Shown piece after piece: positions 13,535 through 57,979 of a stretch of 64,000 bases of DNA (the stretch's first letter is position 1; the number at the start of each line of letters is the position of its first letter). The translations under genes and the position numbers were made by a program. Origin of the DNA: Pseudomonas tensinigenes (lineage in GTDB: Bacteria; Pseudomonadota; Gammaproteobacteria; Pseudomonadales; Pseudomonadaceae); NCBI RefSeq assembly GCF_014268445.2, contig NZ_CP077089.1:5563501-5627500 (forward strand), written 5' to 3'. Below the pieces are notes generated by a model. It was given only the letters and a program-made list of their open reading frames with translations. It did no database searches and was not told the origin of the DNA.

Positions 13535-13603
13535 GGTCGTTCTCCATAATGACCTCGGAACATCCGAAGCTTCCCTGTCAACACGGCACAATCGCCAATT
13601 CAC

Positions 13604-14845
13604 CTAACTCACTTCCGAATCCCAGATCACCGTGACATTGCCCGAATAGCTGCGGGCATACCCGTCCTTGAGCATTTCATCCACCGCATCACGGGCCACC
13701 TCGAAATGCAGCGTGCCAACCTTGCGATCGAGATAGAAACCCGGCTGAAACAACTCGGTACCACTGCCATCGCGCCACAACCGACGGCGCTTGACCGGCT
13801 GCCCGGCGCTGTCAGTCAGGCCGTTGGGCAACGTGACGCTGACTTCCAGCGGGACACCATGGCCAGCGGTCGATTCCCATAGCGCGCAGTTGTTGCCCAT
13901 GACGTACTCGCATTCAATGTTCATCCTGAAACGGCTCGACGCCGAGATATTGAACGTCTGATCGCGCATCAGCCGGGTCGGCTTGCGCCCCTGGTTCAGC
14001 CAGGATTGCCAGCCCCCGAGCGGCTCCAGCACCACGCGGTTGCCGCCGGGAGGAATATCGACCTTCATGGTGTGCGTGACCTTCAGATTGAAGTTGAGGG
14101 TCAGAATCGAGTCGGACGGGATCATCACATCGCCCATGTCGAAATCCATGTTCGGGCCGACGGTGTAGGTGATGGAACCGGTGTAGTCGCCTGCATCCAT
14201 CTTCAGCGGATCCGGTGTGCGCAGTTCGTAGGCGTAGACGAAATACAGGTAGCGCATGGACAGCGGAATATCGAACTTTGCCTGCTTGCTACAGGCCCCC
14301 GCGCCCGTTGGCACTTTCCAGAAACTGTTGTAACCCACTTCTCCCGCGGAAAAAGTGCCGACACCCTGGCACGGCGCCGGGGCGTGCATCCACCCACCGC
14401 CCTCCCACAGGTCGTCCCACCCGCCACCGCCGGTCAACTCGGCCACCCGGTCCGGCAATTGCGTTTCATGACCGACACCGGCAATCCTCAACTGCACGAC
14501 CTGCGTATCACCGGAAGAGTGAGTGACGGTGATGTTCTGCCAATTGGAGGGGACTTTGGCCATGCCGCCTAGGCGAGGATCACTGTGATTGGCCTGAATG
14601 GGCGCGCTGGCCTCAAAGGAAATTCGTGCAATCAGGCTGAACAGTCCGAAAGGTTCACAAGCCCAGGGCGCTTGCCGGCAAAAACCCTCGGACTGTGTCT
14701 GATTCTTGAACTGATTCTTTTGCGGATTGGCAAAGTCAGGCTCGAAGGTCGCGTCAATGTTGTGCACTTCGGCCGCTGCCGCGACGCTGAACAACGTCAG
14801 CAAACCAATCCATGGCCGGATGCCCGGGGCGCTAAAAAAACTCAA
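13604..14845 (-). CDS. CFA/I-type fimbrial tip adhesin (CfaE/CblD family), copy 2, TTG start
   Basis: 413 residues with a signal peptide ending near VAAAA-EVHN. The start is TTG at 14845, with GGAGAACGCCC directly upstream. The same context (GGAGAACGACC) precedes the ATG of the downstream paralog, so the start position is conserved and only the codon differs. The body is a two-part adhesin-pilin protein close to its neighbour at 12275-13534, pointing to a fairly recent tandem duplication followed by divergence of the adhesin half. It lies 46 bases after the second pilin gene, in the same operon. Confidence 0.83.
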   Translation of the reverse strand: MSFFSAPGIRPWIGLLTLFSVAAAAEVHNIDATFEPDFANPQKNQFKNQTQSEGFCRQAPWACEPFGLFSLIARISFEASAPIQANHSDPRLGGMAKVPSNWQNITVTHSSGDTQVVQLRIAGVGHETQLPDRVAELTGGGGWDDLWEGGGWMHAPAPCQGVGTFSAGEVGYNSFWKVPTGAGACSKQAKFDIPLSMRYLYFVYAYELRTPDPLKMDAGDYTGSITYTVGPNMDFDMGDVMIPSDSILTLNFNLKVTHTMKVDIPPGGNRVVLEPLGGWQSWLNQGRKPTRLMRDQTFNISASSRFRMNIECEYVMGNNCALWESTAGHGVPLEVSVTLPNGLTDSAGQPVKRRRLWRDGSGTELFQPGFYLDRKVGTLHFEVARDAVDEMLKDGYARSYSGNVTVIWDSEVS

Positions 14846-14891
14846 GGGCGTTCTCCAAAAATATACCGATACCAGCGCTACACGCGCCGAC

Positions 14892-15392
14892 TCACTCGCC
14901 CGGCGCTCGGGCGCTGAACAGCAGCAGCACGTTGCCGGCGTAATCTCCGGCGCGGTAGCCGCCCTCCGGTCTGATCGGGTCGATTTGCAACAACACCCGA
15001 CTGCCCGCGGCGGCTTCGGCCTGCGACACCACCTGACGCGGCGCCATCTCAGCGCTCAACTCCACCTCGTTGAAGGTCACGCGCAGTCTGATATCGTCCG
15101 CCGGCCGACCGTTCGAAAGGTAGGGCGCGGACTCCAGGCGCGCCTCAATCGCACCGGTGTCGTGGCGCACGTCAAAGTATTTGCGCACACTGCTCAGGCT
15201 TGAGGTCGGGTGGTTCCAGTGCAGCTGCTGCGGCCGGTGAATCCAGTCCGGCTCCGCCGGAATGATGTAGAACGCTCGACTGGGGACGTTCAGTGTCACT
15301 TCGAAGGTGTGTTCTTCCCGAGCCGCCCAGGCCGCGTCGCTGGTCAAAGCCGCCGCGGCAATCAGCGCGACGACGGTGCATTGCTTGATCAT
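14892..15392 (-). CDS. CFA/I-type fimbrial subunit, second pilin
   Basis: A 166-residue secreted pilin of the CFA/I (CfaB/CblA) family. The signal peptide ends at AWA-AREEH. It shares with the first pilin (20063-20554) the early strand (TLNVPSRAFYIIP against SIVAHVPTNGFYVVP), a YFDVRHDTGAIEARL region aligned with FFDVRNNNGSVHASV, and the closing GDYAGNVLLLF against GDYTGVVALTF. It has no cysteines, as usual for donor-strand pilins of this class. Its place after the chaperone, away from the first pilin, suggests a minor or alternative subunit. Confidence 0.82.
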   Translation of the reverse strand: MIKQCTVVALIAAAALTSDAAWAAREEHTFEVTLNVPSRAFYIIPAEPDWIHRPQQLHWNHPTSSLSSVRKYFDVRHDTGAIEARLESAPYLSNGRPADDIRLRVTFNEVELSAEMAPRQVVSQAEAAAGSRVLLQIDPIRPEGGYRAGDYAGNVLLLFSARAPGE

Positions 15393-15426
15393 GTTGGTTA
15401 CCCGTAGCGTTCAATGAAAAGCAGAC

Positions 15427-16170
15427 CTAGCGGCTGCTGACCGTCAGGTTCTTCTTCTCGCTGCCCTCGATCAGAAAGAAGCGGTACGCACGGCCCTTCT
15501 CCTTATCGAAAGCGAAGGTTTTGCCCGCCAGCACATGGTGTTTGGTGGTCGCGCCGCAGTCGGTTTCGTTACTCAGCGAACAGCTTTTGAACTCGTCGAC
15601 GATCACCACGGTATTGCCGTCATTGCGCAGTTCGTAGCGACTGGCGGTTTCATTGATTGCCGTGGCGAAGCGTGCTTCCTTGGGGCGGACAAAGAACACC
15701 GTGCCAAACCCGGTCATCACGTTGACCCCGGCCGTCAGTGCCTTTTTGTAGTCTTCACGCTCTTCCTGGCTGACTGCGAACTCGTCTTCTTTTTCCGGCA
15801 CCACCGGCACGAACCGCACACGGAAGTAACGCTCGCGATCGCGTGCGCCCATGTACAGCAAACGGGTGCCCTGCATTCCCTGAGCCGGCACGATCAGCCG
15901 CGCCGGACTGGCCATCAAGCCGTTGCGCGAGGCGCCGTCGGCAGCGTTCTGAACCGGGATTTCCGTCGGTATGCCGTCGGCACCGTAGACAATTTCCAGC
16001 ACGTTGACCTTGACGAACGCAGTGGCGTCACCGCTGTTGAACACCCGTTTCAGGTAGGTACTTTTGTCGGCATCCAGATAGTCGTACACCGTACCGACAT
16101 TGATCTGCGGCCCGGCCTGCGCCGTCAGGCAAAACACGCTGAGCACGCCCAGCAAAAAACCACGGTTCAT
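15427..16170 (-). CDS. Fimbrial periplasmic chaperone (CfaA/CblB family)
   Basis: A 247-residue periplasmic chaperone for alternate (CS1-type) pili, which holds pilin subunits by donor-strand complementation before delivery to the usher. The ATG at 16170 begins a typical signal peptide ending at TAQA-GPQ; GGAG lies about 9 bases upstream. The frame runs open to 16344, but that region overlaps the preceding adhesin gene. An ATG at 16185 is the only other reasonable start. The chaperone sits in mid operon, between the first tip adhesin and the second pilin. Confidence 0.83.
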   Translation of the reverse strand: MNRGFLLGVLSVFCLTAQAGPQINVGTVYDYLDADKSTYLKRVFNSGDATAFVKVNVLEIVYGADGIPTEIPVQNAADGASRNGLMASPARLIVPAQGMQGTRLLYMGARDRERYFRVRFVPVVPEKEDEFAVSQEEREDYKKALTAGVNVMTGFGTVFFVRPKEARFATAINETASRYELRNDGNTVVIVDEFKSCSLSNETDCGATTKHHVLAGKTFAFDKEKGRAYRFFLIEGSEKKNLTVSSR

Positions 16171-16216
16171 CGTCTTCAACTCCATGAAAAAAGGAAAAAG
16201 GCCCCGGCCGGCACGT

Positions 16217-17431
16217 TCACACGTCCGAGTCCCAGATAACGGTGATATTGCCGCTGAGCGTGTCGGTGAAACCCGGCCGCAAAAGAAAGTCGATGGCATC
16301 CCTGGGCATCTCGAAACGCAATGAGCCGGCCTTGCGGTCCACATAAAAACCCGGTTGAAAAGGACCGACCCACGTGTTGTAAAGCAGTTTGAGCTGACTC
16401 ACCGTGCGCCCCATGGGCCCATCGATGCCGGCGGGCAGCGTGAGATAGGTTTCCACCTCGGTGACATTGCCTCTGGGGCTGCGCAATTTGCAGCGCGTAC
16501 CGCCCGTGGAGTCGCACAGGATCATGACCTTGAAGCGCGACGAGGCGGAGATGTAGAACAGTTGATCGCGAAAGATGCGTGTCGGCGGGCGGCCATTGTC
16601 GACCCAGCGCATCCAGCCGCCCTCGGGTTCGAGTAGCACTTTGTTGCCGCCCGGCGGCAGATCGACCTTGAGGGTGTGCTGCACGTCGAGCACGAAATCC
16701 AGATTCAGGCTGCCATCGTCCGGCGCCATCAACGGCCCCAGATCGAAATCGCCGCCGTTGCCGATGGAATACGCCAGCGAACCGGTGTAAAGACCCGATG
16801 ACATGCCTAACGGATTGGGCGTGCGCAACTCGTAGGCGAAATCCAGATTGTTGAAGTACATCGATGGAATGGTGAACGCGGCAATCTTGGTGCAGGCCGT
16901 TTCCACCGGCGTTTTCCAGAAAAACCGGTAGTAATTGGGCGTAAAGAAACCGACACCGCTATAGATACAGGGGGCAGGAGCATAGACCCAGCTGCTGCCG
17001 GTCCAGAGTTTCTGATGGCCTTCAAGCGGGTCGCTCACGCCCACCAGATTGGCCGCGGTGTCGCTCAACACAAATGTCGAACCGATGCCGATGATGCGGA
17101 TTTCGACGGTTTCGCTTTCCTGCGTCTCGGCATTGGTCACCGTCAGTTGCCGCCAATTGGCCGGTGCCTTGACCGTCACAGCGTCACCGGGCTGGAGAGT
17201 GCGGGTGGACTCGAAACGAATCGGAAATTGAATACTGAACATGCGGTTATCGGCGCACTCGCTCGGGGCAGCCTCGCAATACCCGCTGTTCGGCGTTTGG
17301 TTGATGAACACGTTTTTGCTCGGCTGCGACGGATCAGGCTGAAACAACGCGCGGATCTCCTGGCTCGCCGCCTCGGCGGCCGGCATCGCCAATGCCAGCC
17401 AGAGGCCCAGGCCATACGTGGACTTGTTCAT
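16217..17431 (-). CDS. CFA/I-type fimbrial tip adhesin (CfaE/CblD family), copy 1
   Basis: 404 residues with a signal peptide ending at AEA-ASQE. The ATG at 17431 follows the usher stop codon within a few bases, with AAGGCGGG upstream. It is more distant from the other two tip-adhesin copies, but keeps the family layout: FQPDPSQPSKNVFINQTPNS opening, YELRTPNPLGM before the pilin domain, FYISASSRFK, and the closing GNITVIWDSDV. As the copy next to the usher it is probably the ancestral tip adhesin of the operon. Confidence 0.83.
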   Translation of the reverse strand: MNKSTYGLGLWLALAMPAAEAASQEIRALFQPDPSQPSKNVFINQTPNSGYCEAAPSECADNRMFSIQFPIRFESTRTLQPGDAVTVKAPANWRQLTVTNAETQESETVEIRIIGIGSTFVLSDTAANLVGVSDPLEGHQKLWTGSSWVYAPAPCIYSGVGFFTPNYYRFFWKTPVETACTKIAAFTIPSMYFNNLDFAYELRTPNPLGMSSGLYTGSLAYSIGNGGDFDLGPLMAPDDGSLNLDFVLDVQHTLKVDLPPGGNKVLLEPEGGWMRWVDNGRPPTRIFRDQLFYISASSRFKVMILCDSTGGTRCKLRSPRGNVTEVETYLTLPAGIDGPMGRTVSQLKLLYNTWVGPFQPGFYVDRKAGSLRFEMPRDAIDFLLRPGFTDTLSGNITVIWDSDV

Positions 17432-17435
17432 CGAT

Positions 17436-19958
17436 TCAACCCGCCTTCTGTGCGGTGGCACTGACGTCAGCCACGGTGTCCGGCGTACAGCGCAGATCGC
17501 CGATCATCAGTACATTGTTTTCACTGCGGTACTGGTTGGCATCAAGGCGGAACTGACACAGCAACCGATTATCGCGACGGATTTCGAGGGTCGGCGAACC
17601 GGCGTTCATTTCCATTGAAAAGAACCCGTCGACCTCGGTCACGCCACGGCTGGCGTGGTTGATCACGTGATGGCCCTTGAGCGGCTGCCCTGCTTCATCG
17701 ATCAGTCGACCGAGCACTGTCAGGGTTTTCATCACACGGATCTTGCGATACTCCACCCCGCCTTTGTTCAGGTGATAGCGAGTGCGCGCCGGCTCGATCG
17801 TCGCCGCCGGTACGTGATTGCCTTCGAAATCGAAGCTCACCGAGCTGTTCTGATACGCGGTGATCGGGATGAAATTGCGCCCCGGTTTCAACGCCGCGCT
17901 GCCGCCGCTGTAATCGTCGGCACGCAAGGCGATATCGTCGATGTCCGACTCCACATCGACGATCATTCCGGCGCCGCGCATTTCGTACTGACTGGTCATC
18001 AACATCTGCTGACCGCCGACCACCAGCGTGCTGTCGAGGTTCAGGCCACCGGTGAAATTGCCGTTGTAGGACGAGCGCTGGATAAAGCCATCGCCATTGA
18101 CCGAATCGGTGCGGAAATTCGCCAGGCTGGACATGCCGACACCGTAGGTATCGGTCAACGCCGTGACCGAGACGTTTTGCAGCACATGATCCTTGAAGTC
18201 CTTGCGCCAGCCGATCGATCCGTTGTTGTCGCGGCTGCCGTCGCGAGCGGTGCGCGAACCGATGCTGCCGGTAATCTGCTGGCCGGGAGCGCCGAGCGCC
18301 AGATTGACGCTCAGGTCGACCCCGCGGTTGCGCGCATCGCCACTGCTGTAGCTGCCCGGCCGATCGAACAGTGACAAGCGCCAGCTGGCATCGCTGCCAA
18401 ACAGTTGGGTGCGTTGGGTCCACCCCAGATCCATGCCCAGGCCTTCGACATTGCCTTCGCTGTGCGACACCCGGGCGTTGAGGGTGTTCTTGCTGTTGAT
18501 GCGATGGTTGAGCGCCAGCGACGAGTTGCTGGTCTGGCCGATGAACACATTGCGCGGGCGAACCCGGGTGCCGTCGGGCAAGGTGTCATAGGTGTTGGTG
18601 GTATCGAGCCAGCTGCGGTTGTGGCTGATCACCACACTGCCGGATCCGTAGTTGTAGAGGCTTTGCAGATCCAGACCGGTGCCGTAATCCTCGGTCTTGT
18701 AGACGTTGGCGTAGAGACTCATGTGATTGGCCAGCGTCCAGTCGATGGACGTACCGTATTGCAGTTTTTCGCGGATCTGGCGCGCCGACAACCCGAGAAT
18801 CACCCGCGGGTGCAACAAGTAATTGAGCGCCGCCCCGGCGGTGGGGCTACCACTGGACTGCGTGTCCCAGTTGCTCAGCAGTTTGCTTTCCTCGCCGGCA
18901 AACACGTTGTAGCGCCAGCGCTCGTCGAGGTTGCGCCAGTTACTGGGCTTGTACACCAGCTCCTGAGTGGTCGAGGTGATCTGGCCGTCTTCGATCAGGC
19001 GCACCTCCACTTCATAAATACCGCCGGGCAAAGGCCGGGTGTCGAGGGTCTGCAAACCGGCAGGCACCGACTGGGTGTTGATCAACAGACCGTCACGCCA
19101 GATCTCCACCGAACCCTGACGGTTGGCAGTGACATAAATCGGATAAACGCTGGGCATCGGGCTGTTGATCGCCAGGCTGTCGGAGCTGCCGTACATGACC
19201 CCGACCGCCGTATCCGGGCTGGTGCCGAACGTGCGCGGCTGACGGGTCAGCCCCTCGGAATTGGGAGTGAAATAGCCCAGGCGAAAAAAACTGCCTTGCA
19301 GTTCGCGCTGGGTGTGCAGTTCGTGTACAGCGTGATAAAGCTTGTCGTCCGGCCCGCCAAGACGTGCCAGTTGCAGGTTCAGCGTCTGGCTCCAGTTACC
19401 CAGGCTGCCGCTGGCCTCAAGACCAAAGCGTCCGCCCAGATCCTGATCCTGGCCGCCGTTGAGGTTCAGTTGATTGCGCACCATCAAGCCATGGCTGCCA
19501 CCTTCGGGCTGCTCGTAATAACGCTTGGCTTCAAGGTCGCGCTCAGCGTTTGCGGTGAGAATCGAAACCAGAGAACTTTCCAGGTTGTAATGCACGGCCA
19601 GCACCTGATCCGGACAGGAACCGGTGCAGTTGCCCAGTGGCACGCCGGGCTTGAGATAAGCCGCCCATTTCTCGCGATCAGCGGGGCCGTAGCGGTTTTC
19701 ACTGGTGTCGGTGAATTCGAGCAGGGTGATGCGATCATCGCGGGACAACACCACCATGGCCTCGCCCAGGGGCTGATGATCGAGTTCGACCCGAACCGCC
19801 AGAGGCACATCAAAGAAGTGCTCCTCGAAATCTGCCGGCAGGCCTTTGGCCTGGGCCAACAGACTGCGCGGCGTAGTACCGGCAGAGTTGGAAGCCACGG
19901 CAGCGCTGGCACAAAACAACAGCGCAAGCGCAGCCGCGATGGGTGTCATCGGGAACAT
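17436..19958 (-). CDS. Fimbrial outer-membrane usher (CfaC/CblC family)
   Basis: An 840-residue outer membrane usher for CS1-type alternate chaperone-usher pili; it secretes and assembles the subunits. The signal peptide ends near AVASNSAG. The length fits the family, and the body is rich in beta-barrel strands with a region resembling the usher plug and carboxypeptidase-like domains (GGIYEVEVRLIEDGQ). The start could be three codons later at 19949. The stop overlaps the ribosome binding region of the tip adhesin, so the two are translationally close. It is the only usher in the operon and must serve all pilins and adhesins here. Confidence 0.88.
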   Translation of the reverse strand: MFPMTPIAAALALLFCASAAVASNSAGTTPRSLLAQAKGLPADFEEHFFDVPLAVRVELDHQPLGEAMVVLSRDDRITLLEFTDTSENRYGPADREKWAAYLKPGVPLGNCTGSCPDQVLAVHYNLESSLVSILTANAERDLEAKRYYEQPEGGSHGLMVRNQLNLNGGQDQDLGGRFGLEASGSLGNWSQTLNLQLARLGGPDDKLYHAVHELHTQRELQGSFFRLGYFTPNSEGLTRQPRTFGTSPDTAVGVMYGSSDSLAINSPMPSVYPIYVTANRQGSVEIWRDGLLINTQSVPAGLQTLDTRPLPGGIYEVEVRLIEDGQITSTTQELVYKPSNWRNLDERWRYNVFAGEESKLLSNWDTQSSGSPTAGAALNYLLHPRVILGLSARQIREKLQYGTSIDWTLANHMSLYANVYKTEDYGTGLDLQSLYNYGSGSVVISHNRSWLDTTNTYDTLPDGTRVRPRNVFIGQTSNSSLALNHRINSKNTLNARVSHSEGNVEGLGMDLGWTQRTQLFGSDASWRLSLFDRPGSYSSGDARNRGVDLSVNLALGAPGQQITGSIGSRTARDGSRDNNGSIGWRKDFKDHVLQNVSVTALTDTYGVGMSSLANFRTDSVNGDGFIQRSSYNGNFTGGLNLDSTLVVGGQQMLMTSQYEMRGAGMIVDVESDIDDIALRADDYSGGSAALKPGRNFIPITAYQNSSVSFDFEGNHVPAATIEPARTRYHLNKGGVEYRKIRVMKTLTVLGRLIDEAGQPLKGHHVINHASRGVTEVDGFFSMEMNAGSPTLEIRRDNRLLCQFRLDANQYRSENNVLMIGDLRCTPDTVADVSATAQKAG

Positions 19959-47049: not shown

Positions 47050-47120
47050 TACATAGGTAGTGCACTCCCCTTGAGCGATTGAGCCATGCTCGGCGTTCAT
47101 TTCTCAAGGATGGAGAAAGC
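47050..47120 (+). repeat. Duplicated 5' region of tandem toxin A
   Basis: The 71 bases upstream of toxin A share an ordered set of words with the 74 bases upstream of toxin B (50300-50373): TACATA, AGTGCA, CTTGAGC, CATGCT and GGATGGAGAA before the ATG. The gene duplication carried its own control region, so both may be under the same regulator. Confidence 0.65.
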
Positions 47121-50100
47121 ATGAAATCGCCCGAACAGCGCCCTCTGCCGAATGCAGCAGACAAAGCCTCTCTCAAAGCCATGGCTGCGACAGTCGTTCA
47201 AATGTGCCCAGGCCTTCACGACGAGGCGCATCAAGTCGCCCGCGAGTTGCTGGAGCGTAAGCACCTGAAGGGGATCGATCCGGACCGGGTCTATTTCCAT
47301 CGATTCAAATCTGCGCAAAGCAGCACCCGCTCGTTTACCGGCTGGGAGCACATCCGCGAAAAGCCCTACGAATCGATAACCCTCACACAACTGGTGATTC
47401 ATCGCTTTCGGGCCACCGATCAGGACAACGCTGACCTGCTGGATCTCTATGCCGGTTTCTATACCGACGGCCCCGACAACGAAAATTTCGATCACCGCAA
47501 TGAATGTCGCCTGCACGGCAACGAGGTACTCGACGCCTTCTGGGACATCGACTTCAGCACGCGGTACCACAACCAGCTGACGGCCTTCTGGAACACCCAC
47601 GGCAATGATTTTCGCACGCTGGCCAAATGCACTTTTCTCAGCCGTGCGGTGCAGGCACTTGAACTCAAGCAACTGACCGACAGTGATTTCCAGTGCCTCG
47701 TCGGCGCGCTGATCGGGCCTGTCACCTGGCCAGTGACCCTGGCAATGATGCAATCGAGCCACACCGTGGACGGTGACGTGCGCGCTTTCGATATCAGTGG
47801 ACATGTCGCCACCAATCTCCTGCGCGTCGTCGCTCCCTCTGGCCGGCAAATCATCTATATGCCCGGTGAAGAGTTGGCATTCGTCGTCAGGCAAACGCCG
47901 GCGGACATGCACTGGTGGGTGCTCGAGCAGATGAATCAAATTACTCGGCGGCAGAACTTCTTCAGTCACTTTCCACTCGCCGAACGTCAGCGAATGACCG
48001 AGAACATCACCGATCTGATGAACCGGCTGGTGAGCACCTGGGGCCACGCCGATCATCATCTGATCAATCAGCACAACCTGGCGCTCAGTGGTGATGCGTT
48101 CAGTGGATTACGTGACACCACCCGCAGTGCAATGTTCGCCGAAGCCAGCCTGTCGCTGACGTCCAACGGCGATCTGCGTAAAAAACTGTGGATCGGCTAT
48201 TTGAGCGCCGGCCTCAAGGTGTTCGGCCCGATGGCCGCTGTCGGCTGGCCTGTTGCGCTGCCGGTGATTGGCGCCGGCATTGCCAGCGTGGGCTTGAACA
48301 TCGATCAGGCGGTCAACGGCAAAACCGCCAGCGAACGCAAGGCTGGGGTGCTTGGCGCCGTGGCGAGCGGGATTGAAACGCTGTTCAATCTCCCGTTCCT
48401 CAAAGGCACCGGTGCAATGCTCGAGACAGGCGTACAGGTCGAAGCGGCCGAGGCAACGGAAATGGCGGAGCTGATCGAGTCAGAGTCGGCCGTGGAACCG
48501 GAGCCGCCTGTCGATACGCAGCAAATCATGGTTCCGGATAGCCCCGACGTCTTCGTTTCTGAACCTGATCCCCCCAGACTGATTCCGGCGGCCAGCGCGC
48601 CGCCGCCACAGGTTCCGCACAAATACCTGTGCAATGAACTGCTCGACGGTTTGCAAGCGGAAAGCGAACCTGGACAGTTCGAAGGTATTTTTCGACTTGA
48701 TGCTGATCCTCCCTACGCCGTCCTGCTGGATGAAAATCCTTACTACGTCAAATATTTCACCGACTCGCGTGGGGGTGGCTATTGGGCAATCGTTGACCCT
48801 GAGCGACCCAATCAGCTTGTTCATTCATTACCGATTCGCCTGAATGCCGAAGGTCTGTGGGAGCGTATGCGATCGCTGGGCCTTTCGGGCGGCGGGCAGT
48901 GCATGGGCAAGGCGTGTGCCCCGGATATCGCGCTCGACACCTTTGAACCCCCAGCGCCCGAAGTGGCTGTCGAACCGGAGTTCGAATCAGCCGCGACAGT
49001 CGTGCGCCCGATCCGCATCGTGCCCTCTGCCTACGATATCGAGCCGACGGTGCGCCGTTCGATAAAAGGCTGGGCGCTGAACCTGAACGAAACCCATGCC
49101 CAACTGCTGCCCGATGCCTCCGGCGCGTTGAGCATGGCCGACCCCTTTGAGCTCTACGCGGTGAGCAAGCGCAAACTGCTGCAGACCGCCGCCAGAAAAT
49201 TCTTCAGCAATCTTCCATGGATTACCTCGCCTGCGCGACCGCCAACGCCAGAAATCACGGCACCGCTGGACATTCCCGGCCTGTTGGATCGCATCTTTGA
49301 ATCAGCCTCGGGGCTGGTGGTGGGCGAAACCCTGGATCGTATCGCCAGCATGCGCTTCATGATTGAAAACATGCCCGCTCTGGCCAGGCACGCAAAAACC
49401 CTCTACATGCGCGGGATCCTCAGTGACTTCGCTCAAGTGGAATTGAACCGCTACTTCACGTCCGGCACCCTGTCGGCGGATCTGCAAACCTACCTGAGCA
49501 GCCTGGGCACCGATCCGGCGGGGCTCTTCAATGCATTGGAACTGGTCAAGGTTGCCAGGCAAAACGGTGTTCGTATCCAGGGGATTGATTGCGCCGCAAG
49601 CTACAAGATGAAGTCCCCGCTATCGCCCTATGACGAGCAGATGATCGGTACTTATCTGGCGAGCGACCTCATGACGGGAGACACCTACCTCAACAGCCCC
49701 CGGAAATGGATCGTGCTGATCAGTGCGCAAAACACCAACACGCTCAGAGGCCTTGCCGGTATCAGCGAAATAAAGGGTGGCATCGGGTTGCGCATCGAAG
49801 AAGTCGGGATGGAAACGACCATGGACATCGAGGCTGATCCGGGTATCGAAGTGCGTCGTGGATCATTTCCAAACGGCTCTGCATCACCGGGCAATAACGA
49901 CGTGCTGCGCGCTGACCTGCGTCTACGCGTACCGGCCGAACCGGTGAACTGGACTGAGAATACGTTAGAGAACCTGTTGCACAGGCGCGGCATGTTCATG
50001 CTCAGAAAAATCGCCGATACCTACACCGTGGTGCACCGCAGCAAGCAAGGCATGCTCGTGCGAACGCGCGTGAGTCAACTGCCGGATGGAAGCGTTTCGT

Positions 50101-50213
50101 TGCACCGCCCGTCATGGCCGCAAGTGAACGATGTCCCGTTCGCCAGCATCGAGCAAATGTCTAACCGATTGATCGAAATGGGCCTGACATTACAAAGCCG
50201 TCTTCCGGACTGA
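47121..50213 (+). CDS. Large toxin A, membrane-targeted effector type with degenerate TIKI/ChaN-like domain
   Basis: 1030 residues. The ATG at 47121 has GGAGA 6 bases upstream. It has an N-terminal toxin module (to about 330), a hydrophobic region (about 360-400, KVFGPMAAVGWPVALPVIGAG), a Pro/Glu-rich linker, a conserved cap module (GQFEGIFRLD, YWAIVDPERPNQL, GGGQCMGKAC) and a C-terminal domain like that of Pseudomonas MTED toxins, related to the TIKI/ChaN/erythromycin-esterase superfamily. That fold uses histidines in GExH and a late GNSH-type motif. Here they read VGETL (Leu738) and SAQN (869-871), so both are lost. No secretion signal. A close paralog follows directly. Confidence 0.7.
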   Translation: MKSPEQRPLPNAADKASLKAMAATVVQMCPGLHDEAHQVARELLERKHLKGIDPDRVYFHRFKSAQSSTRSFTGWEHIREKPYESITLTQLVIHRFRATDQDNADLLDLYAGFYTDGPDNENFDHRNECRLHGNEVLDAFWDIDFSTRYHNQLTAFWNTHGNDFRTLAKCTFLSRAVQALELKQLTDSDFQCLVGALIGPVTWPVTLAMMQSSHTVDGDVRAFDISGHVATNLLRVVAPSGRQIIYMPGEELAFVVRQTPADMHWWVLEQMNQITRRQNFFSHFPLAERQRMTENITDLMNRLVSTWGHADHHLINQHNLALSGDAFSGLRDTTRSAMFAEASLSLTSNGDLRKKLWIGYLSAGLKVFGPMAAVGWPVALPVIGAGIASVGLNIDQAVNGKTASERKAGVLGAVASGIETLFNLPFLKGTGAMLETGVQVEAAEATEMAELIESESAVEPEPPVDTQQIMVPDSPDVFVSEPDPPRLIPAASAPPPQVPHKYLCNELLDGLQAESEPGQFEGIFRLDADPPYAVLLDENPYYVKYFTDSRGGGYWAIVDPERPNQLVHSLPIRLNAEGLWERMRSLGLSGGGQCMGKACAPDIALDTFEPPAPEVAVEPEFESAATVVRPIRIVPSAYDIEPTVRRSIKGWALNLNETHAQLLPDASGALSMADPFELYAVSKRKLLQTAARKFFSNLPWITSPARPPTPEITAPLDIPGLLDRIFESASGLVVGETLDRIASMRFMIENMPALARHAKTLYMRGILSDFAQVELNRYFTSGTLSADLQTYLSSLGTDPAGLFNALELVKVARQNGVRIQGIDCAASYKMKSPLSPYDEQMIGTYLASDLMTGDTYLNSPRKWIVLISAQNTNTLRGLAGISEIKGGIGLRIEEVGMETTMDIEADPGIEVRRGSFPNGSASPGNNDVLRADLRLRVPAEPVNWTENTLENLLHRRGMFMLRKIADTYTVVHRSKQGMLVRTRVSQLPDGSVSLHRPSWPQVNDVPFASIEQMSNRLIEMGLTLQSRLPD

Positions 50214-50299: not shown

Positions 50300-50373
50300 T
50301 ACATATGCAGTGCATCGCTCTTGAGCTGTTCGGTCATGCTTGATTCTCGTTTTCCCCATGGATGGAGAAGTAC
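50300..50373 (+). repeat. Duplicated 5' region of tandem toxin B
   Basis: Counterpart of 47050-47120: TACATA, AGTGCA, CTTGAGC, CATGCT and GGATGGAGAA in the same order and at nearly the same distances. The 86 bases before it (50214-50299) show no terminator, so toxin B may also be read from toxin A's promoter. Confidence 0.65.
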
Positions 50374-53300
50374 ATGAACACTCCCGAACGCCGTTTGCTG
50401 CCGAACGCAGCTGACAAGGCCAGCCTCAGGGCAATCGCTACATCACTCGTGCAGGCTTGCCCCAGCCTGCTGGAGGCGGCCCGTGAGATCGCCCTTCAAT
50501 TGCTGATCGACAAAGGACTGCCGGGCCTTGATCCGGACCGTGTCTATTTCCATCGATTCAGGGCCGCGCAGAGCAGCAACCTGACCTTCACCGGCTGGGA
50601 ACATCTGCTGGAAAAGCCCTATGAATCGTTGACCCTCACCCAACTGGTAATCCAGCGCTTTCGCGCCACCGATCAGGACAATGCCGATCTGCTGGGGCTG
50701 TACTGCGGCTTTTACGCAGACGGGCCGCAGGCCGACAACTTCAATCAGGATAATGAAATTCGACTGCTGGGCAGTGATGTGCTGCAGGCGTTCTGGAATA
50801 TCGATTTCAGCAGCCGCTACACTCGGCAACTGACCACTTACTGGCAAACCTCGTCGCACCATTTCCGCACACTGGCCAAGTGCAATTTTCTCAGCCTGGC
50901 AGTACAGGCGCTGCAACAGGGCCACCTTGACGGTACAGATTTTCAGCGCGTGATCGATTCGGTTATCGGCTCCGTGACCTGGCCTGTCACCCTGCAAATG
51001 CTACAAGCCTCGCACCCGGTGGGCGCTCATGTACGCGCGCTGGATCTTGATGGGCACGTCGCCACCCATGCGCTGCGTTTCGTTGAGGACAGTGGTCGGC
51101 AAACCCTTTACTTACCCGGCGAAGTGCAACCCTTTCGGCTGATGGAAGATCAAGCGGATCTGCACTGGTGGATGCTTGAACAGATGAATACGGAGGATAA
51201 GCGCAAGATCTTCATGAACCGCTTCTCCCTGGCCGACCGCAACCGGATGGGCGAAAAACTCAATGACCTGATGACTCGCCTGGTCAGCACCTGGGGTCAT
51301 AGCGATCACCGGATGATCAACCACAGCAACGTCACCATCAGCGGTGACGCGTTCACCTGGTTAAGCGATTCGACACGCAACGCCATGTTTGCCGAAGCAG
51401 ACATGGCGCTGACCTCCAACAGTGATCTGCGCAAAAAACTCTGGATGGGTTACCTCAGTGCCGGTCTCAGGGTATTCGGCCCGATGGCAACCGTAGGATG
51501 GCCGCTGGCACTGCCGGTGATTGGCGCCGGGATCGCCAACATGGGGTTGAACATCGATCTGGCGGTCAACGGCAGGACGGCTGTCGAGCGCAAGGCCGGC
51601 ACCCTTGGCGCGGTGCTCAACGGCATTGAAGTACTGTTCAACGTTCCGTTCCTGATCGGTACCGGCGCGCATCTGGAAGTGGGCCCGCAGGTCGAGTTTG
51701 CCGAAGCCGAAGAAATGGCCGGACTGATCGAGTTCACCTCGGGCAACGATCCATTTCTGCCACCGCTGGATCAGGCGCCCTTGCTGACCACTGACGAGGA
51801 GACTGACGAGATGGCCAACGACATCCCCATCGAGACATCACCCCGCCCCACGCTGCACGGTCCGCTCGCGCCACAGATTCCTGCCCGCTACCAGTGCAAC
51901 GAATTGCTTGATCGTTTTTCTGTAGAGACCAAGTCCGGGAAGTTTCAAGGCATTTACCGACTCGGCAACGCTCAGCCCTATGCCATCGAGATCGAAGGCA
52001 ACGCGTATTACGTGCGGTACTTCGACGCCTCCGGGGACAGTGGCAACTGGGCCATCGTCGATCCGGAACACCCCAACCAGTTCGCGTATTCATTGCCAGT
52101 GCGTTTCAGCGCAACCGGCAAATGGGAGCGCACGCCGGCGCTGCGTCTCAGAGGCGGCGGGCAGTGCGTGGGCACGCCATGTGCGTCAGAAATCGAACTG
52201 ACCTCGCAGGTCATCTCATCAACCCCGTCGCCAGGCCTGCCATTGGTCGAACCGGTGCCATCCACTGCCCGTCCGCTGCGCCTGGTGACCACCCTCGGTG
52301 ATATTGGAGAGCTGGACGCGGCCAAACTGAAAAAGTGGGCAATGAACCTGCCCCAGGATTCTGCCGATATGGCGAACATCGTCCCAGACCATCCATCTGA
52401 CGAAGAACAATTCACGCTGTTTTTCAGCCAAAAACGCACACGACTCCTGAACGAAGCCAAAGAGCATTACTCAGAGCTGGACTGGACCAATCTGCCTGCG
52501 CGTCCGGTAATACCCGAAGTCAGTCACTCGATGTCGACCGATGAACTCATTGATCGCGTCTTCGAGAAAACGATGGGGCTGGTGGTGGGGGAAACCCTCG
52601 ATCGCATCACCAGCATGCGATTCATGATCAGCAACATGCCAGCGTTTGCACGACACATCACGACGCTCTACGTGGGTGACCTGCTGAGCGATTTTGCCCA
52701 GATGGATCTGAACGGTTTCTACACGAGCGGGCAGATGTCAGAGGATCTGCGGATTTATCTGGGCAGTCTCGGAACCGATCCAGACGAGACGTTCAACATC
52801 CTCGAACTGGTCAAGACCGCGCAGGCAAATGACGTACGCGTTCAAGGCCTGGGTTGCGCGGCGATCTCCAAAATGAAAGTGCCGCTCACCTCGATTGAGG
52901 AGCAAATGATGAACGCTCAGCAGATGAACAGAATCATGTGGGGCGACGCACTCCTCAATCGACCGGGCAAATGGGTAGCCTTGATCGATGCACAGAACAC
53001 CAATAACTTCAGAAACCTGCCAGGCATCAGCGAACTCAGAGGCGGTATCGGCTTGCGTATCGAAGAATCCTTACCTTCGGAAGTGCCAGGAGTCAGCATC
53101 GACCCGGGAGTCAAGGTGGCTCGCGGGCCCTTCGACAATGGTGCATCGACCCGCAACTCGTTCGACTACCTTTACGCTGACCTGCGTCTGCAAATCGACG
53201 CGCCGCCGGTGATATGGACAGAGCAAGCGCAGGCACGCCTGCTCCATCGCAATGGGATGTACCTGGTCGAGAAATCGCAAAACGGTTACACGCTGGTGCG

Positions 53301-53478
53301 GCGCGGCAGTACAGGCAGCATTGTTCGAACGCCGGTGAACCTGACGCAGGACGGCCAGGCTTATATCTGGCTTCAGTCAATGCCGCGCATCAGTGGCGTA
53401 TTGTTTCCAGATATCGCAGCGTTATCTCAGCGCCTGATAGAAATAGGCCTGAAACTGCAAAGTCGCTTACCCACCTGA
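50374..53478 (+). CDS. Large toxin B, paralog of toxin A
   Basis: 1034 residues. The ATG at 50374 has GGAGA close upstream; another ATG lies 12 bases earlier. It is collinear with toxin A throughout: identical LPNAADKASL opening, RFRATDQDNADLL, STWGHSDHRMINHSN, the hydrophobic KVF/RVFGPMA region, the GGGQCVG module and a C-terminal VVGETLDR domain. The same two histidines are replaced (GETL at 739-742, and IDAQNTN near 873), so the loss predates the duplication. The linkers (about 450-520) have diverged most. The function of the pair is unknown; toxin-like by family only. Confidence 0.7.
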   Translation: MNTPERRLLPNAADKASLRAIATSLVQACPSLLEAAREIALQLLIDKGLPGLDPDRVYFHRFRAAQSSNLTFTGWEHLLEKPYESLTLTQLVIQRFRATDQDNADLLGLYCGFYADGPQADNFNQDNEIRLLGSDVLQAFWNIDFSSRYTRQLTTYWQTSSHHFRTLAKCNFLSLAVQALQQGHLDGTDFQRVIDSVIGSVTWPVTLQMLQASHPVGAHVRALDLDGHVATHALRFVEDSGRQTLYLPGEVQPFRLMEDQADLHWWMLEQMNTEDKRKIFMNRFSLADRNRMGEKLNDLMTRLVSTWGHSDHRMINHSNVTISGDAFTWLSDSTRNAMFAEADMALTSNSDLRKKLWMGYLSAGLRVFGPMATVGWPLALPVIGAGIANMGLNIDLAVNGRTAVERKAGTLGAVLNGIEVLFNVPFLIGTGAHLEVGPQVEFAEAEEMAGLIEFTSGNDPFLPPLDQAPLLTTDEETDEMANDIPIETSPRPTLHGPLAPQIPARYQCNELLDRFSVETKSGKFQGIYRLGNAQPYAIEIEGNAYYVRYFDASGDSGNWAIVDPEHPNQFAYSLPVRFSATGKWERTPALRLRGGGQCVGTPCASEIELTSQVISSTPSPGLPLVEPVPSTARPLRLVTTLGDIGELDAAKLKKWAMNLPQDSADMANIVPDHPSDEEQFTLFFSQKRTRLLNEAKEHYSELDWTNLPARPVIPEVSHSMSTDELIDRVFEKTMGLVVGETLDRITSMRFMISNMPAFARHITTLYVGDLLSDFAQMDLNGFYTSGQMSEDLRIYLGSLGTDPDETFNILELVKTAQANDVRVQGLGCAAISKMKVPLTSIEEQMMNAQQMNRIMWGDALLNRPGKWVALIDAQNTNNFRNLPGISELRGGIGLRIEESLPSEVPGVSIDPGVKVARGPFDNGASTRNSFDYLYADLRLQIDAPPVIWTEQAQARLLHRNGMYLVEKSQNGYTLVRRGSTGSIVRTPVNLTQDGQAYIWLQSMPRISGVLFPDIAALSQRLIEIGLKLQSRLPT

Positions 53479-53499
53479 AAGGATTCGCGCGGCGATTGA

Positions 53500-53536
53500 A
53501 ACGAAAAACCCCTGGCCTGGGCCAGGGGTTTTCGTT
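53500..53536. terminator. Rho-independent terminator, probably the original guaA terminator
   Basis: AACGAAAAACCCCTGGC (53500-53516) and GCCAGGGGTTTTCGTT (53521-53536) form a long stem with a 4-base loop and T/A tracts on both sides. It lies between toxin B and the displaced guaA fragment. It can serve toxin B on the plus strand and was probably the guaA terminator before the island entered. Confidence 0.85.
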
Positions 53537-53567
53537 CACTCAATACCAGCTTCGACGCGCGGCAGGA

Positions 53568-53810
53568 TCACTCCCACTCAATCGTCGCCGGCGGCTTGCT
53601 CGATACGTCGTAAGTGACGCGGGAGATGCCTTCGATTTCATTGATGATGCGGCCGGAGACGGTTTCCAGCAGTTCGTAAGGCAGGTGAGCCCAACGTGCG
53701 GTCATGAAGTCGATGGTTTCCACGGCACGCAGGGCAACGACCCAAGCGTAACGACGGCCGTCGCCAACAACGCCAACCGATTTCACTGGCTGGAATACTA
53801 CGAAAACTTG
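53568..53810 (-). pseudogene. Displaced guaA 3' fragment
   Basis: It encodes the last 80 or so residues of GMP synthase (from about [17 protein letters not shown] to [14 protein letters not shown]), identical in protein sequence to guaA apart from the upstream edge. It has no start, and the upstream sequence diverges beyond 53795. It lies next to what looks like the original guaA terminator, so this is the chromosomal end that the island pushed aside (attL). Confidence 0.88.
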
Positions 53811-54052
53811 ACTGAATCTGTGGGAATTTCGTCGCCCTTGAAGGCACACTTGACCAATAACGTCACCACTCGCCTGGGCTATAGACAAGCGCCTTGTCGC
53901 TCATCCCCGTTTTTTTCTGGTGAAGCAGCTTGTTACCGTTGAGAGAAACAACAACCTGACAAAAAGCGAAAACCTTACGTAAAATGCCGCCGTGGCTATG
54001 GAACACCTTCCTTCTAATCCCTATGAAACTAGGGGTTCCGCTCTCCACACCG

Positions 54053-54075
54053 CGCCTGCTTCTAGCAGGCGTTTT
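54053..54075 (+). terminator. Hairpin with T run in the leader of the TerD-like gene
   Basis: CGCCTGC (54053-54059) pairs with GCAGGCG (54065-54071) around TTCTA, followed by TTTTC. It lies 65 bases before the TerD-like gene. It could be an attenuator in the leader, or the terminator of a lost upstream gene. Confidence 0.55.
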
Positions 54076-54139
54076 CATATCAGCTGTAGACACGATGCTG
54101 CAGCTCGCTCACGACGACGACCCAAGGAGAAAATCAAGC

Positions 54140-56212
54140 ATGAATCAGGAGCTGTTCCTGCGTCGCCGTAGCAAAGTTCACGTCCCTATGGGCACTGGCG
54201 GTGCCACGCGTGCTCAGGTCGCATCGGCTGTCCGTGAAGTCGCCGCGTTCCGATGCGTACTTTCAGAGCCTCTGATTGAGCAAATCGGCATGTTGTCAGC
54301 GACAGAACTCAAGTACTGGCTGCGTAGCATTGTCGGAGTGCTTCGGCGCAGGAATGGCGCTCATGTGCACCACCGGCCGTTTTATCCTGACTTTCCAGAA
54401 CAGGTTCTGACGGCCACAGAGGGGGAGTTGTACCTAAACGCCGTCATGCATTACCTCACGCTTCGACGTTTACCAAAGACTGAAGAATCTCGACCTCCAC
54501 TGCTTGAGGGCAACCTCATACCCTGGGTTATCGAACCGGGGAGCATCCATCAGTTCGAGTCACTGCTCGAACCGCTGTTGTCATCGCGCACCTCGCTCTC
54601 CGAGGAGGAAACCGCTGATGTCCTCTGGTTTGTCCGAGAGTACAAACGCGATGTGTTCCGTTTGCTGCCTGAGGACATCCCTTTCCGAGAGATCCGTGCA
54701 CAGTTGGGCGGCGCACTTATCCTGCATGCAGCCGACGATGCACGGGTGGACGCATTCCTGGAGCGCAACGTCGAAACGGCGACGGATGTGCTACGACTCG
54801 CGGTCGCCCTGAGTGGCGGAGACGTATCGCTGACGACAGCGTCGACACGTTTCAAAACGATGAAGCGCTCGATGCGCCGCCTGTTGTTGCGCCTGCTCGA
54901 CTCAATACCCATCGCTACAGAAGATGTGATGCGCCATGCCGAACGCTGGAAACGTCTCGCTGAAGTACTGCATCCAGGCGACTACGCCGATAAGTACCCA
55001 CGAGCACTAGCCGCCATCACGGCAGCGCGCCGCAACGAAGCGCCAGCCACTTTTGGTTCACGTGTCGAAACACTGCTGGCCCAGCGCGACATCGCCGCGC
55101 TTACGCCCATACTACAGAGCCGTCCTGGTGAGTTCGCACGACGGCTGGACGTAGCGCTACGGCGCACGACGGGACCGGAGTCGGTTCTCAAGGCGTTCGA
55201 GGCGGTGGCGACACAAGTGTCCTCACCGGTCCTGCTGCAATTGCTGGCCCAGGTACGCGCTCCGCGCCCCCTACCGCTACGGGCATTCACGCCGAAAGGC
55301 TCATTCGCCAAAGTCTATGGCATCAAGGATCGCCGCGAACCCATCACTCCCGAGGTGTTGGCTCGCGCAGCCCAAATCTGCGAACACGCTCTCCTAGTGC
55401 GTTTTGCGTCGCTGTCGCCACTTGGCCGCTGTTTCATCGATCCCGCGTTAAGCGAATACAAGGTGCCGCTGGCGCAGCGTGCCTCATCGAAGTCGCTACG
55501 TACGCTGGTGCGGGGCAGTCGCTTGCCTATGCCTGATACACGTTTCATTCGCCTGTTTCTGTGGTGGAAGAATGGCAGCCAACGCACGGACATCGACTTG
55601 TCCGCCGCTTTTTTCGACGCCAACTTCGTCTTCAAACAAACAGTCGCGTACTACAACCTGAAGGATTTCGGCGGTTGCCACAGCGGCGACATCACCGACG
55701 CGCCCGACGGAGCTTCGGAGTTTATCGACCTCGATATTGATGTCCTGATCGAACAGGGTATTCGCTACGTAGTCACGTCCATCAACTCATACACCGAGCA
55801 ACCGTACTGCGATCTTCCAGAATGCTTCGCGGGCTGGATGGCCCGCGCCGACACGATGTCGGGTGAAGTATTCGAACCGCGATCGGTGTTCGACCGGATC
55901 GATATCGCATCCGACACCGTAATTTGCCTGCCTTTCGTGATGGACTTGCAGGAACGACGCATGATTTGGGCCGACCTGGGGCTTACTTCATCGCCGCGCT
56001 GGAACAACGTCGGGAACAACCTCAGTGGGGTATCGCTGATGCTGCAGGCCTTAGTGCACACACCACGTCCGGATCTGGAAACCCTGTTCGACTTGCATGT
56101 TCGAGCACGGGGGGAACGAGTGATCTCACCGCAACAGGCAGAGGCGGTGTTTGCACCTGATCAAGGGATAACGCCGTTCGATACGGATTTGATTCGATCG
56201 CGGTTTCTCTGA
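54140..56212 (+). CDS. TerD-like domain protein, MXAN_6230/SCO0854-like family
   Basis: 690 residues. The ATG at 54140 has AAGGAG about 10 bases upstream; the frame opens earlier at 53984. It starts FLRRRSKVHVPMGTGGATR as in MXAN_6230/SCO0854 proteins, has a helical middle part, and ends (about 490-640) in a TerD-type stress domain: TDIDLSAAFFDANF, HSGDITDAPDGASEFIDLD, DLPECFAGWM. TerD domains bind calcium and belong to tellurite and stress or phage-defence loci. The RING cysteines of the family's actinobacterial and myxobacterial members are not evident. It is the sole cargo of the guaA island, convergent with guaA. Codon use looks less GC-biased than its neighbours. Role unknown. Confidence 0.75.
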   Translation: MNQELFLRRRSKVHVPMGTGGATRAQVASAVREVAAFRCVLSEPLIEQIGMLSATELKYWLRSIVGVLRRRNGAHVHHRPFYPDFPEQVLTATEGELYLNAVMHYLTLRRLPKTEESRPPLLEGNLIPWVIEPGSIHQFESLLEPLLSSRTSLSEEETADVLWFVREYKRDVFRLLPEDIPFREIRAQLGGALILHAADDARVDAFLERNVETATDVLRLAVALSGGDVSLTTASTRFKTMKRSMRRLLLRLLDSIPIATEDVMRHAERWKRLAEVLHPGDYADKYPRALAAITAARRNEAPATFGSRVETLLAQRDIAALTPILQSRPGEFARRLDVALRRTTGPESVLKAFEAVATQVSSPVLLQLLAQVRAPRPLPLRAFTPKGSFAKVYGIKDRREPITPEVLARAAQICEHALLVRFASLSPLGRCFIDPALSEYKVPLAQRASSKSLRTLVRGSRLPMPDTRFIRLFLWWKNGSQRTDIDLSAAFFDANFVFKQTVAYYNLKDFGGCHSGDITDAPDGASEFIDLDIDVLIEQGIRYVVTSINSYTEQPYCDLPECFAGWMARADTMSGEVFEPRSVFDRIDIASDTVICLPFVMDLQERRMIWADLGLTSSPRWNNVGNNLSGVSLMLQALVHTPRPDLETLFDLHVRARGERVISPQQAEAVFAPDQGITPFDTDLIRSRFL

Positions 56213-56333
56213 TACGTATGCCAGCGTTTGCGATCGATTGAGAACTACGACCCTTGCTTCGGTGCTCCCACCAAAAAATGCCAGTCATCCTCACTGAGTG
56301 GCCGTTCGCTCCAGAGCACTATGAGAAACTCAA

Positions 56334-56369
56334 AAAAAATGCCTGATGCATAAGCACCAGGCATTTTTT
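56334..56369. terminator. Two-way terminator between the TerD-like gene and guaA
   Basis: AAAAAATGCCTG (56334-56345) and CAGGCATTTTTT (56358-56369) form a perfect 12-bp stem with A and T tracts, functional on either strand. It was probably brought in by the island and now ends the guaBA transcript. Confidence 0.88.
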
Positions 56370-56401
56370 GTTTCAGCCGATCGGCCCTGAGGCCGGAGGC
56401 A

Positions 56402-57979
56402 TCACTCCCACTCAATCGTCGCCGGCGGCTTGCTCGATACGTCGTAAGTGACGCGGGAGATGCCTTCGATTTCATTGATGATGCGGCCGGAGACGGTTTC
56501 CAGCAGTTCGTAAGGCAGGTGAGCCCAACGCGCGGTCATGAAGTCGATGGTTTCCACGGCACGCAGGGCAACCACCCAAGCGTAACGACGGCCGTCGCCA
56601 ACAACGCCAACCGATTTCACTGGCTGGAACACGACGAAGGCTTGGCTGACCTTGTGGTACCAGTCGGCTTTGCGCAGTTCTTCGATGAAGATGTGGTCGG
56701 CACGACGCAGCAGGTCGGCGTATTCCTTTTTCACTTCACCGAGGATACGCACGCCCAGGCCCGGGCCCGGGAACGGGTGACGGTAGACCATGTCGTACGG
56801 CAGGCCGAGTTCCAGGCCCAGACGACGGACTTCGTCCTTGAACAGTTCGCGCAGTGGCTCGACCAGTTTCAGGTTCATCTCTTCCGGCAGGCCGCCCACG
56901 TTGTGGTGCGACTTGATCACGTGAGCCTTGCCGCTTTTCGCGCCAGCCGACTCGATCACGTCCGGGTAGATGGTGCCCTGCGCGAGGTACTTGATGTTTT
57001 CCAGTTTGTTCGACTGGGCATCGAATACGTCGATGAAGGTACGACCGATGATCTTGCGCTTCTTCTCTGGGTCGGCTTCGCCGGCCAGGTTGTTGAGGAA
57101 CTGATCTTCAGCGTTGGCGCGAATGACTTTGACGCCCATGTTCTCGGCGAACATGGCCATCACTTGCTCGCCTTCGTGCAGACGCAGCAGGCCGTTGTCG
57201 ACGAAGACGCAGGTCAGTTGATCGCCAATGGCTTTGTGCAGCAGCGCGGCAACCACCGAGGAGTCAACGCCGCCGGACAGACCCAGCAGCACGTTGTCGG
57301 TGCCGACTTGTGCGCGGATGTTGGCAATGGCGTCTTCAGCGATCTTCGACGGCGTCCACAGGGCTTCACAGCCGCAGATGTCGAGAACGAAACGCGAGAG
57401 GATGCGACCGCCCTGTTTGGTGTGGGTCACTTCCGGGTGGAACTGCACGCCGTAGTAGCCACGGTCGTCGTTGAACATGCCGGCGATCGGGCAGCTTGGG
57501 GTGCTGGCGAGGATGTGGAAGTCTTCCGGCATCTTGGTGACCTTGTCACCATGGCTCATCCACACGTCGAGGCTGAACAGGCCGTCAGCGTCGATGTGGT
57601 CTTCGATGCCGTCGAGCAGGCGGCTCTTGCCAACCACGTCAACGCGGGCGTAACCGAACTCACGCAGTTCGGAACCTTCAACCTTGCCGCCCAGTTGCTC
57701 GGCCATGGTCTGCATGCCGTAGCAGATACCGAAGACCGGTACGCCCAGGTCGAACACTGCCTGTGGGCAGCGCGGGCTGTCGGCGACGTGCACGGACTCG
57801 GGGCCGCCGGCGAGGATGACGCCTTTAGGAGCGAATTCGCGGATCGCATCTTCGTCCATGTCGAACGGGTGCAGTTCGCAGTACACACCGATTTCGCGCA
57901 CGCGGCGGGCAATCAGTTGGGTGTATTGCGAGCCGAAGTCGAGGATCAGGATGCGGTGAGCGTGAATATCGAGGGCCAT
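56402..57979 (-). CDS. guaA: GMP synthase (glutamine-hydrolysing)
   Basis: 525 residues, last step of GMP synthesis: XMP to GMP with glutamine and ATP. An N-terminal class I amidotransferase domain (GICYGMQ with the catalytic Cys, GVQFHPEV), an ATP pyrophosphatase domain with the P-loop SGGVDSS, and the dimerisation domain ending [10 protein letters not shown]. The ATG at 57979 ([19 protein letters not shown]) is the usual start. It is the second gene of the guaBA operon. Its last 229 bases are duplicated at 53567, so the present 3' end probably came with the island. Confidence 0.96.

Follow-up and report, generated by a model that had tools for sequence, protein, structure and literature searches.

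The window analysed here is a 64,000-nt stretch of the Pseudomonas tensinigenes genome (contig NZ_CP077089.1, positions 5,563,501 to 5,627,500), and the module inserted beside its guaA gene has two parts. One is a structured RNA of some 65 nt with a terminator-like hairpin behind it; the other is a gene whose product, a 690-aa protein, has a TerD-like domain towards its C terminus. The RNA (window positions 53988-54052, + strand) starts right behind a sigma-70-like promoter, CTGACA-18-TAAAAT (53956-53985, +), and is followed directly on its 3' side by an intrinsic-terminator-like hairpin of 9 pairs, 6 of them G-C (54052-54072, +). The promoter is the sole promoter-like site found in 53480-56420; shuffled versions of that interval contain 1.2 such sites on average, so that the single site is weak evidence when taken alone. 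By eye, a promoter-like stretch also precedes the RNA in most of the Pseudomonas loci compared, and the hairpin 3' of the RNA is likewise present in Pseudomonas loci. The RNA is presumably made as a separate RNA. The protein gene (54140-56212, +) converges on the intact guaA gene (56402-57979, - strand), and a terminator hairpin of 16 pairs (56334-56369) lies between the two.

The RNA emerged from motif discovery in the leaders of homologues that had been gathered by protein search alone, and the motif is common to Pseudomonas, Paenibacillus, Verrucomicrobia, Planctomycetota and records titled Cyanobacteria. Its fold comprises two helices, P1 and the 10-bp P2, separated by an asymmetric internal loop that has CUA in its 5' strand and four nucleotides in its 3' strand, and an apical loop of 18-27 nt with UUCCUUCU; the longer string CUUCCUUCU is this loop motif plus the closing part of P2. 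An alignment of 33 bacterial copies served both to build the covariance model R1 and to test the structure. In it, 93.1% of cells pair as written and 99.4% of helix-2 cells are paired. Double-sided changes occur in 13 of 18 pairs, with 142 such cells versus 42.5 in shuffles, and the covariation score of 0.654 compares with 0.186 in shuffles (0 of 500 reach it) and with at most 0.150 when the structure is slid along the alignment. In the window genome R1 scores the RNA at 69.5 bits, the sole copy at E<=1. Rfam 15 contains no match over the RNA, either in the window and three other loci at permissive thresholds or in ten loci at gathering thresholds, and a known riboswitch or other Rfam RNA was ruled out on these grounds. 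A literature search, judged at the level of titles and abstract openings, found no paper on this RNA, and a mention inside reviews is possible.

RNA and gene occur together. Across 50 sources (the window and 49 homologue loci) R1 finds the RNA in 47, counting the 33 copies that had built the model; in the other three the gene lies 7, 113 and 1 nt from a contig end. A motif scan of the closer Pseudomonas loci recovers it in 31 of 31. When 40 whole genomes were searched, all 55 RNA matches at E<=0.01 lay at the gene, within about 2 kb, and a general regulon was dismissed because none lay away from it. Among 396 Pseudomonas genomes the RNA occurs in 28, namely all 27 that carry a non-remnant gene plus one genome (G313) with an orphan copy (L352, 6868-6932), which has no protein gene in the 14 kb fetched and is perhaps a relic. 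Records outside motif discovery were examined as well. Of the 44 phage and plasmid records that have a homologue, the author picked 14 and searched them with filters off; 11 of the 14 carry the RNA at E<1e-3, RING forms included. Their 16 hits all lie on the strand of the gene and within 500 bp of it, 10 upstream and 6 downstream. The RNA also accompanies six plasmid RING forms, five from Streptomyces or Kitasatospora and one from Variovorax. We regard the RNA structure and its partnership with the gene as very likely.

The 690-aa protein scores 475.9 bits against the NCBIfam model NF041916 (the MXAN_6230/SCO0854 RING family), below the cut-off of 600, a test made for the window protein. The highest-scoring stretch reaches profile position 759 of 842, and the protein lacks the RING end; the 690-aa relatives also end before the RING. 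The window protein belongs to the same superfamily as NF041916 and is homologous over most of its length, differing in the lack of a RING and in its sub-threshold score. Phage relatives match phrog_33734 (7 of 7 scanned). No Pfam family fits the window protein by hmmscan, and no relative of solved structure was found at E<=1.

The sequence-only reading had called the protein TerD-like, and this label holds for about 100 residues. Comparison by hhalign with a profile of 13 TerD proteins picked by motif places a TerD-like domain, including its DxD and HxGD segments, at residues 454-556 (55499-55807, +; probability 95.7, E 9e-9). These segments read DIDLSA and HSGDI in the window protein, and D484, D486 and H514-D517 are invariant across 42 aligned homologues. 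By hmmscan the window protein gives no match to Pfam TerD (PF02342) at E<=10. The resemblance to the TerD proteins of tellurite-resistance loci lies in this domain, as seen by profile comparison; the domain forms a small part of the protein, hmmscan misses it, and no other ter gene lies in the insert.

The module extends to large phages. A scan of virus contigs with a pattern of 15 fixed bases returned at least 80 loci (L156-L235). With so few fixed bases many single matches are expected by chance, and only the pieces confirmed by R1, 41 of the 80 listed, were therefore used; the viral counts that follow hold among the matches listed. R1 recognises 94 RNA copies at E<=0.1 in the 41 pieces, and the gene is present, whole or partial, in 28. 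An alignment of the 94 copies (88 distinct), fitted to R1, has a covariation score of 0.735 versus 0.195 in shuffles, with 0 of 500 reaching it. The 28 genes have 72 copies around them, of which 47 stand upstream, 24 stand downstream and 1 overlaps the open frame; none (0/72) is on the opposite strand. Sixteen virus records were checked whole, of which 10 contain the gene and 6 (7-61 kb) do not.

These viral copies keep company with tRNA genes. Genes for tRNA or transfer-messenger RNA (tmRNA) occur in 26 of the 41 pieces, all 142 of them on the strand of the RNA, and 34 of the 94 RNA copies lie within 300 nt of such a gene; random placement within these pieces gave 17.8+-3.2, and no more than 29 in any of 500 draws. 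One piece (L171) has RNA copies that alternate with tRNAs. Most of the bacterial loci scanned for tRNAs have none, which makes the tRNA link chiefly a phage feature. Genes for tmRNA near the RNA-gene pair were seen in L156 (4738-5049), L189 (7798-8154) and L196 (6028-6373).

A further group of neighbours concerns RNA repair. Four betaproteobacterial loci (L064, L084, L088 and L090) combine the RNA-gene pair with rtcB and rtcA. In Pelomonas (L064) the order is rtcR, Rsr, YrlA, a gene with no Pfam match, rtcB, rtcA, RNA, gene; in the three Variovorax loci it is rtcB, RNA, gene, rtcA, with RtcR in addition in L088, YrlA in L084 and RlaP in L090. In L064 and L084 the Rfam search marks YrlA as a gene of its own, distinct from the RNA described here. 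L088 and L090 also encode a protein of beta-lactamase fold whose match to tRNase Z is sub-threshold, and a Variovorax RING form adjoins rtcR. The Pelomonas piece further holds a dense tRNA array with a GOLLD RNA (13577-17768, -), which lies downstream of its rtc genes and of the RNA-gene pair. Among phages, L189 has an RtcB homologue of 30% identity; in phage Weasels2 the gene follows a tRNA cluster, and RtcB lies about 3 kb behind the gene; in RpAliso the gene sits inside a tRNA cluster, beside a tRNA nucleotidyltransferase. A Vibrio plasmid carries an RNA ligase about 3 kb from the gene.

Taken together, these contexts suggest that RNA and protein may form a ribonucleoprotein particle that helps to maintain, repair or quality-control structured RNA, for example tRNA, a reading we hold to be somewhat likelier than its alternatives combined. 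That the protein binds the RNA is probable; in the mechanism we propose, it would bind one or several RNA copies, the number depending on the host, and the particle would then act on structured RNA such as tRNA. A role specifically in RNA repair or tRNA maintenance is put forward more tentatively, with the chances slightly against it.

The closest counterpart is the Ro60 (Rsr)-Y RNA (YrlA) pair of rsr-yrlBA-rtcBA operons, in which a protein and a dedicated small RNA are likewise encoded alongside one another. Linkage to rtcB and rtcA is seen in the four loci described above and in none of the other bacterial loci searched, and both pairs stand in one operon in L064. The Salmonella rsr-yrlBA-rtcBA operon is reported to respond to damaged tRNA (PMC7790460); a jumbo-phage review places TROVE proteins in phages and connects RNA repair with these proteins and with RNA ligases, and its passages on stand-alone TerD genes in actinobacterial phages name no RNA with them (PMC7824862). 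The components differ. The YrlA model spans 114 positions, whereas the RNA here is a 65-position hairpin with no match to YrlA or any other Rfam family; Ro60 has a TROVE domain, whereas the protein here has a TerD-like domain and shows no similarity to TROVE when compared with five TROVE sequences, and Pfam TROVE is listed for none of the 42 homologues. Unlike Ro60-Y RNA, moreover, the pair described here mostly has no rtc genes nearby. In the proposed mechanism the particle would work like Ro60-Y RNA, though its RNA is unrelated and its protein has no detectable TROVE domain.

Several observations weigh against a particle of this kind. The hhalign comparison with TROVE, made with five TROVE sequences only, gives a probability of 0.2. 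Neighbours rtcB and rtcA are a minority, found in 4 of 49 bacterial loci that are not at guaA (several of which are truncated by contig ends), and most of the genes nearby are unrelated. The RNA matches in three of the test records are weak (Weasels2, E 0.11; RpAliso, 0.013; LpeD, 0.33). Some viral pieces are duplicates (L163 = L177 = L221; L162 = L231; L193 = L214), so that the viral counts overstate independence, and the double-sided changes in 16 of 18 pairs of the viral alignment are reached by 12 of 500 shuffles. In most bacteria, furthermore, the RNA immediately precedes the gene, the position expected of a leader, and the single copy with its terminator in the window would also suit attenuation.

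The last two points favour a different view of the RNA, as a cis-acting leader: a riboswitch, an attenuator or a site of autoregulation. It would control the gene by way of the terminator, and the protein would make no other use of it. The position 5' of the gene expected of such a leader is found in the window and in most bacterial loci, a terminator hairpin follows the RNA in Pseudomonas, and TTTT occurs within 45 nt 3' of 37 of the 52 bacterial copies inspected, a raw count made without a control. A third of the viral copies listed (24 of 72) lie downstream of the gene, however, and copies are exclusively downstream in two viral pieces (L181 and L198) and three plasmid pieces (L341, L343 and L348); three further pieces (L160, L220 and L228) have downstream copies only, but there the upstream side is cut off. 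The copies interleaved with tRNA genes in L171 also speak against a leader, as does a copy that stands behind another gene in L110 (8112-8177): this second copy, with a T-run, follows a 524-aa gene, putatively glutamate-synthase-like, 1.8 kb from the main copy. Most riboswitches also occur away from one single gene, unlike this RNA, which has no match elsewhere in the 40 genomes at E<=0.01. We thus consider a leader function unlikely; were it correct, the RNA would add one more member to a kind already described. In two records assigned to Armatimonadota (L094 and L105) four copies of the RNA follow one another, and the apical loops of some are long.

Multiple copies next to a protein gene also recall type III toxin-antitoxin systems such as ToxIN, in which promoter, RNA repeats, terminator and protein gene follow one another in a short unit. 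The same order, with one to several RNA copies, recurs here, and occurrence in phages and on a patchily distributed insert would fit a pair in which RNA repeats hold the protein in check. The protein itself argues otherwise: at 690 aa with a TerD-like domain it is larger, in Pfam and PADLOC it matches neither ToxN nor any other toxin, and the RNA lies on either side of the gene, within tRNA arrays in phages and, in some loci, among RNA-repair genes and inside their operons. A toxin-antitoxin pair is for these reasons improbable.

If the particle reading is correct, it would provide a second RNA-protein pair in the rtc RNA-repair setting, a function for a family whose current names say no more than 'TerD' or 'RING domain-containing', and an explanation for a multi-copy element in phage tRNA clusters. 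The RNA, absent from Rfam 15, is tied to one protein family as tightly as the samples show. Judged by sequence, neither the RNA nor the protein belongs to a described RNA-protein particle. To a broader reading we give even odds: the pair would represent a new ribonucleoprotein class in many bacterial phyla and large phages, in which a conserved RNA with a 10-bp helix and an CUUCCUUCU loop is partnered by a TerD-domain protein that may or may not carry a RING. It would serve to repair RNA or protect tRNA, and phages would employ it inside their tRNA arrays, perhaps to counter host defences that cleave tRNA.

At the locus itself, the sequence-only reading had described direct repeats of the guaA 3' end framing a segment with one 690-residue gene, its own terminator and no integrase, and each of these elements was recovered. 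A repeat search aligns 53560-53823 with 56394-56657 (264 nt, 95% identity); trimming of the decayed ends leaves a core of 237 bp at 98.3% with 4 mismatches. The repeat runs from the guaA stop codon inward into the gene. Its left copy is a displaced guaA 3' end (53567-53803, -), which decays over about 20 bp more, up to 53823, and its right copy is the 3' end of the intact guaA, to 56657. Outside the insert, at 53500-53540, stands the old guaA terminator hairpin (terminator-like site 53507-53523). One gene-sized open reading frame that fits, that of the 690-aa protein, lies in the insert; there is no other gene-sized frame and no integrase among the insert's frames.

Empty sites were found in two Pseudomonas relatives, G373 (L320) and G111 (L321), where the same two ToxA_N genes, a hairpin that by eye matches 53507-53523 directly behind guaA, and guaA itself occur with nothing inserted. 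They indicate that the DNA at the window guaA is an insertion and that the left guaA copy is the displaced end, as had been proposed from its position beside the old terminator; local duplication without insertion was ruled out by the same two sites. Direct repeats and an empty site, both hallmarks of an integrative genomic island and shared with islands that target guaA, are thus present, and the insert differs from such islands in having no integrase of its own.

In Pseudomonas the gene is patchy, being present in 30 of 398 genomes surveyed; three of these copies are remnants (G059, G121 and G290) and two are split in two frames (G040 and G273). The remnants, which lie beside guaA sequence (L029, L030 and L031), indicate that the module is also undergoing loss. 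The sequence-only reading would have been contradicted by the gene lying at fixed, unrelated core sites in relatives; this does not apply among closer Pseudomonas but does apply outside them. Of 31 closer loci with flanks (L032-L060, L063 and L076), 29 have guaA in the piece; its distance from the gene is at most 300 bp for 13 of them and reaches about 10 kb among the remaining 16. For L053 and L063 guaA is not within the available piece. Two loci labelled Pseudomonas that are only 51-52% identical (L068 and L082) have no guaA in the piece, and neither do the pieces with the gene from other genera.

Beyond the gene, L009 and L045 retain shorter guaA fragments of 82 bp and 36 bp, respectively, and still shorter traces are visible by eye in L033 and L043. 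The window and L003 have common sequence behind the fragment (by eye), which suggests one old insertion that was eroded later. Pairwise distances of gene and guaA across 23 loci correlate poorly (Pearson 0.18, 253 pairs), suggesting that the module has been exchanged between species. The gene is under purifying selection, with a ratio of change at codon positions 1+2 to position 3 of 0.26 (guaA, 0.058). The two guaA copies of the window are closer to each other (98.3%) than to those of the relatives compared (92.8-97.5%), and the same holds for the copies in G183 (95.2%); gene conversion, or integration by homology, would leave such a pattern. In 11 relatives, 41 open reading frames lie between gene and guaA, and the 25 of their 36 families that were listed include no integrase. 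The insert, lacking an integrase, would have been exchanged between Pseudomonas, and recombination in the flanking guaA homology is probably its route.

The sequence-only reading had suggested that this insert, in what it took for an integration hotspot, may be a defence or stress module of a single gene. Insertion at guaA with empty sites, the patchy distribution and the weak correlation with guaA history agree with part of that picture. The hotspot itself fared less well: the guaA 3' end matches in 393 of 398 Pseudomonas genomes, twice in 17, and among 11 of these 17 that were fetched (12-16 kb pieces) the second copy lies near guaA in only 3 (G000, G183 and G203), so that doubled guaA ends were dropped as a sign of a busy hotspot. 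The cargo is not a single gene, since the conserved RNA accompanies it wherever enough sequence is available, and phages themselves carry the module. No positive evidence for a defence role was obtained; the window protein matches 0 families at E<=1 in PADLOC (PADLOC-DB of 2023), and some neighbourhoods point instead to RNA repair and tRNA. A solitary defence or stress cargo is hence a doubtful description, with little probability left to it.

Two large genes with a ToxA_N (dermonecrotic toxin N-terminal) domain adjoin the insert in the window (47115-50213 and 50362-53478, +). In G055 (L332) the 690-aa gene sits between two ToxA_N genes and not directly at guaA, a layout that may reflect material added at guaA later. 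Many of the fetched Pseudomonas pieces have relatives of the ToxA_N genes next to guaA, in varying number and order.

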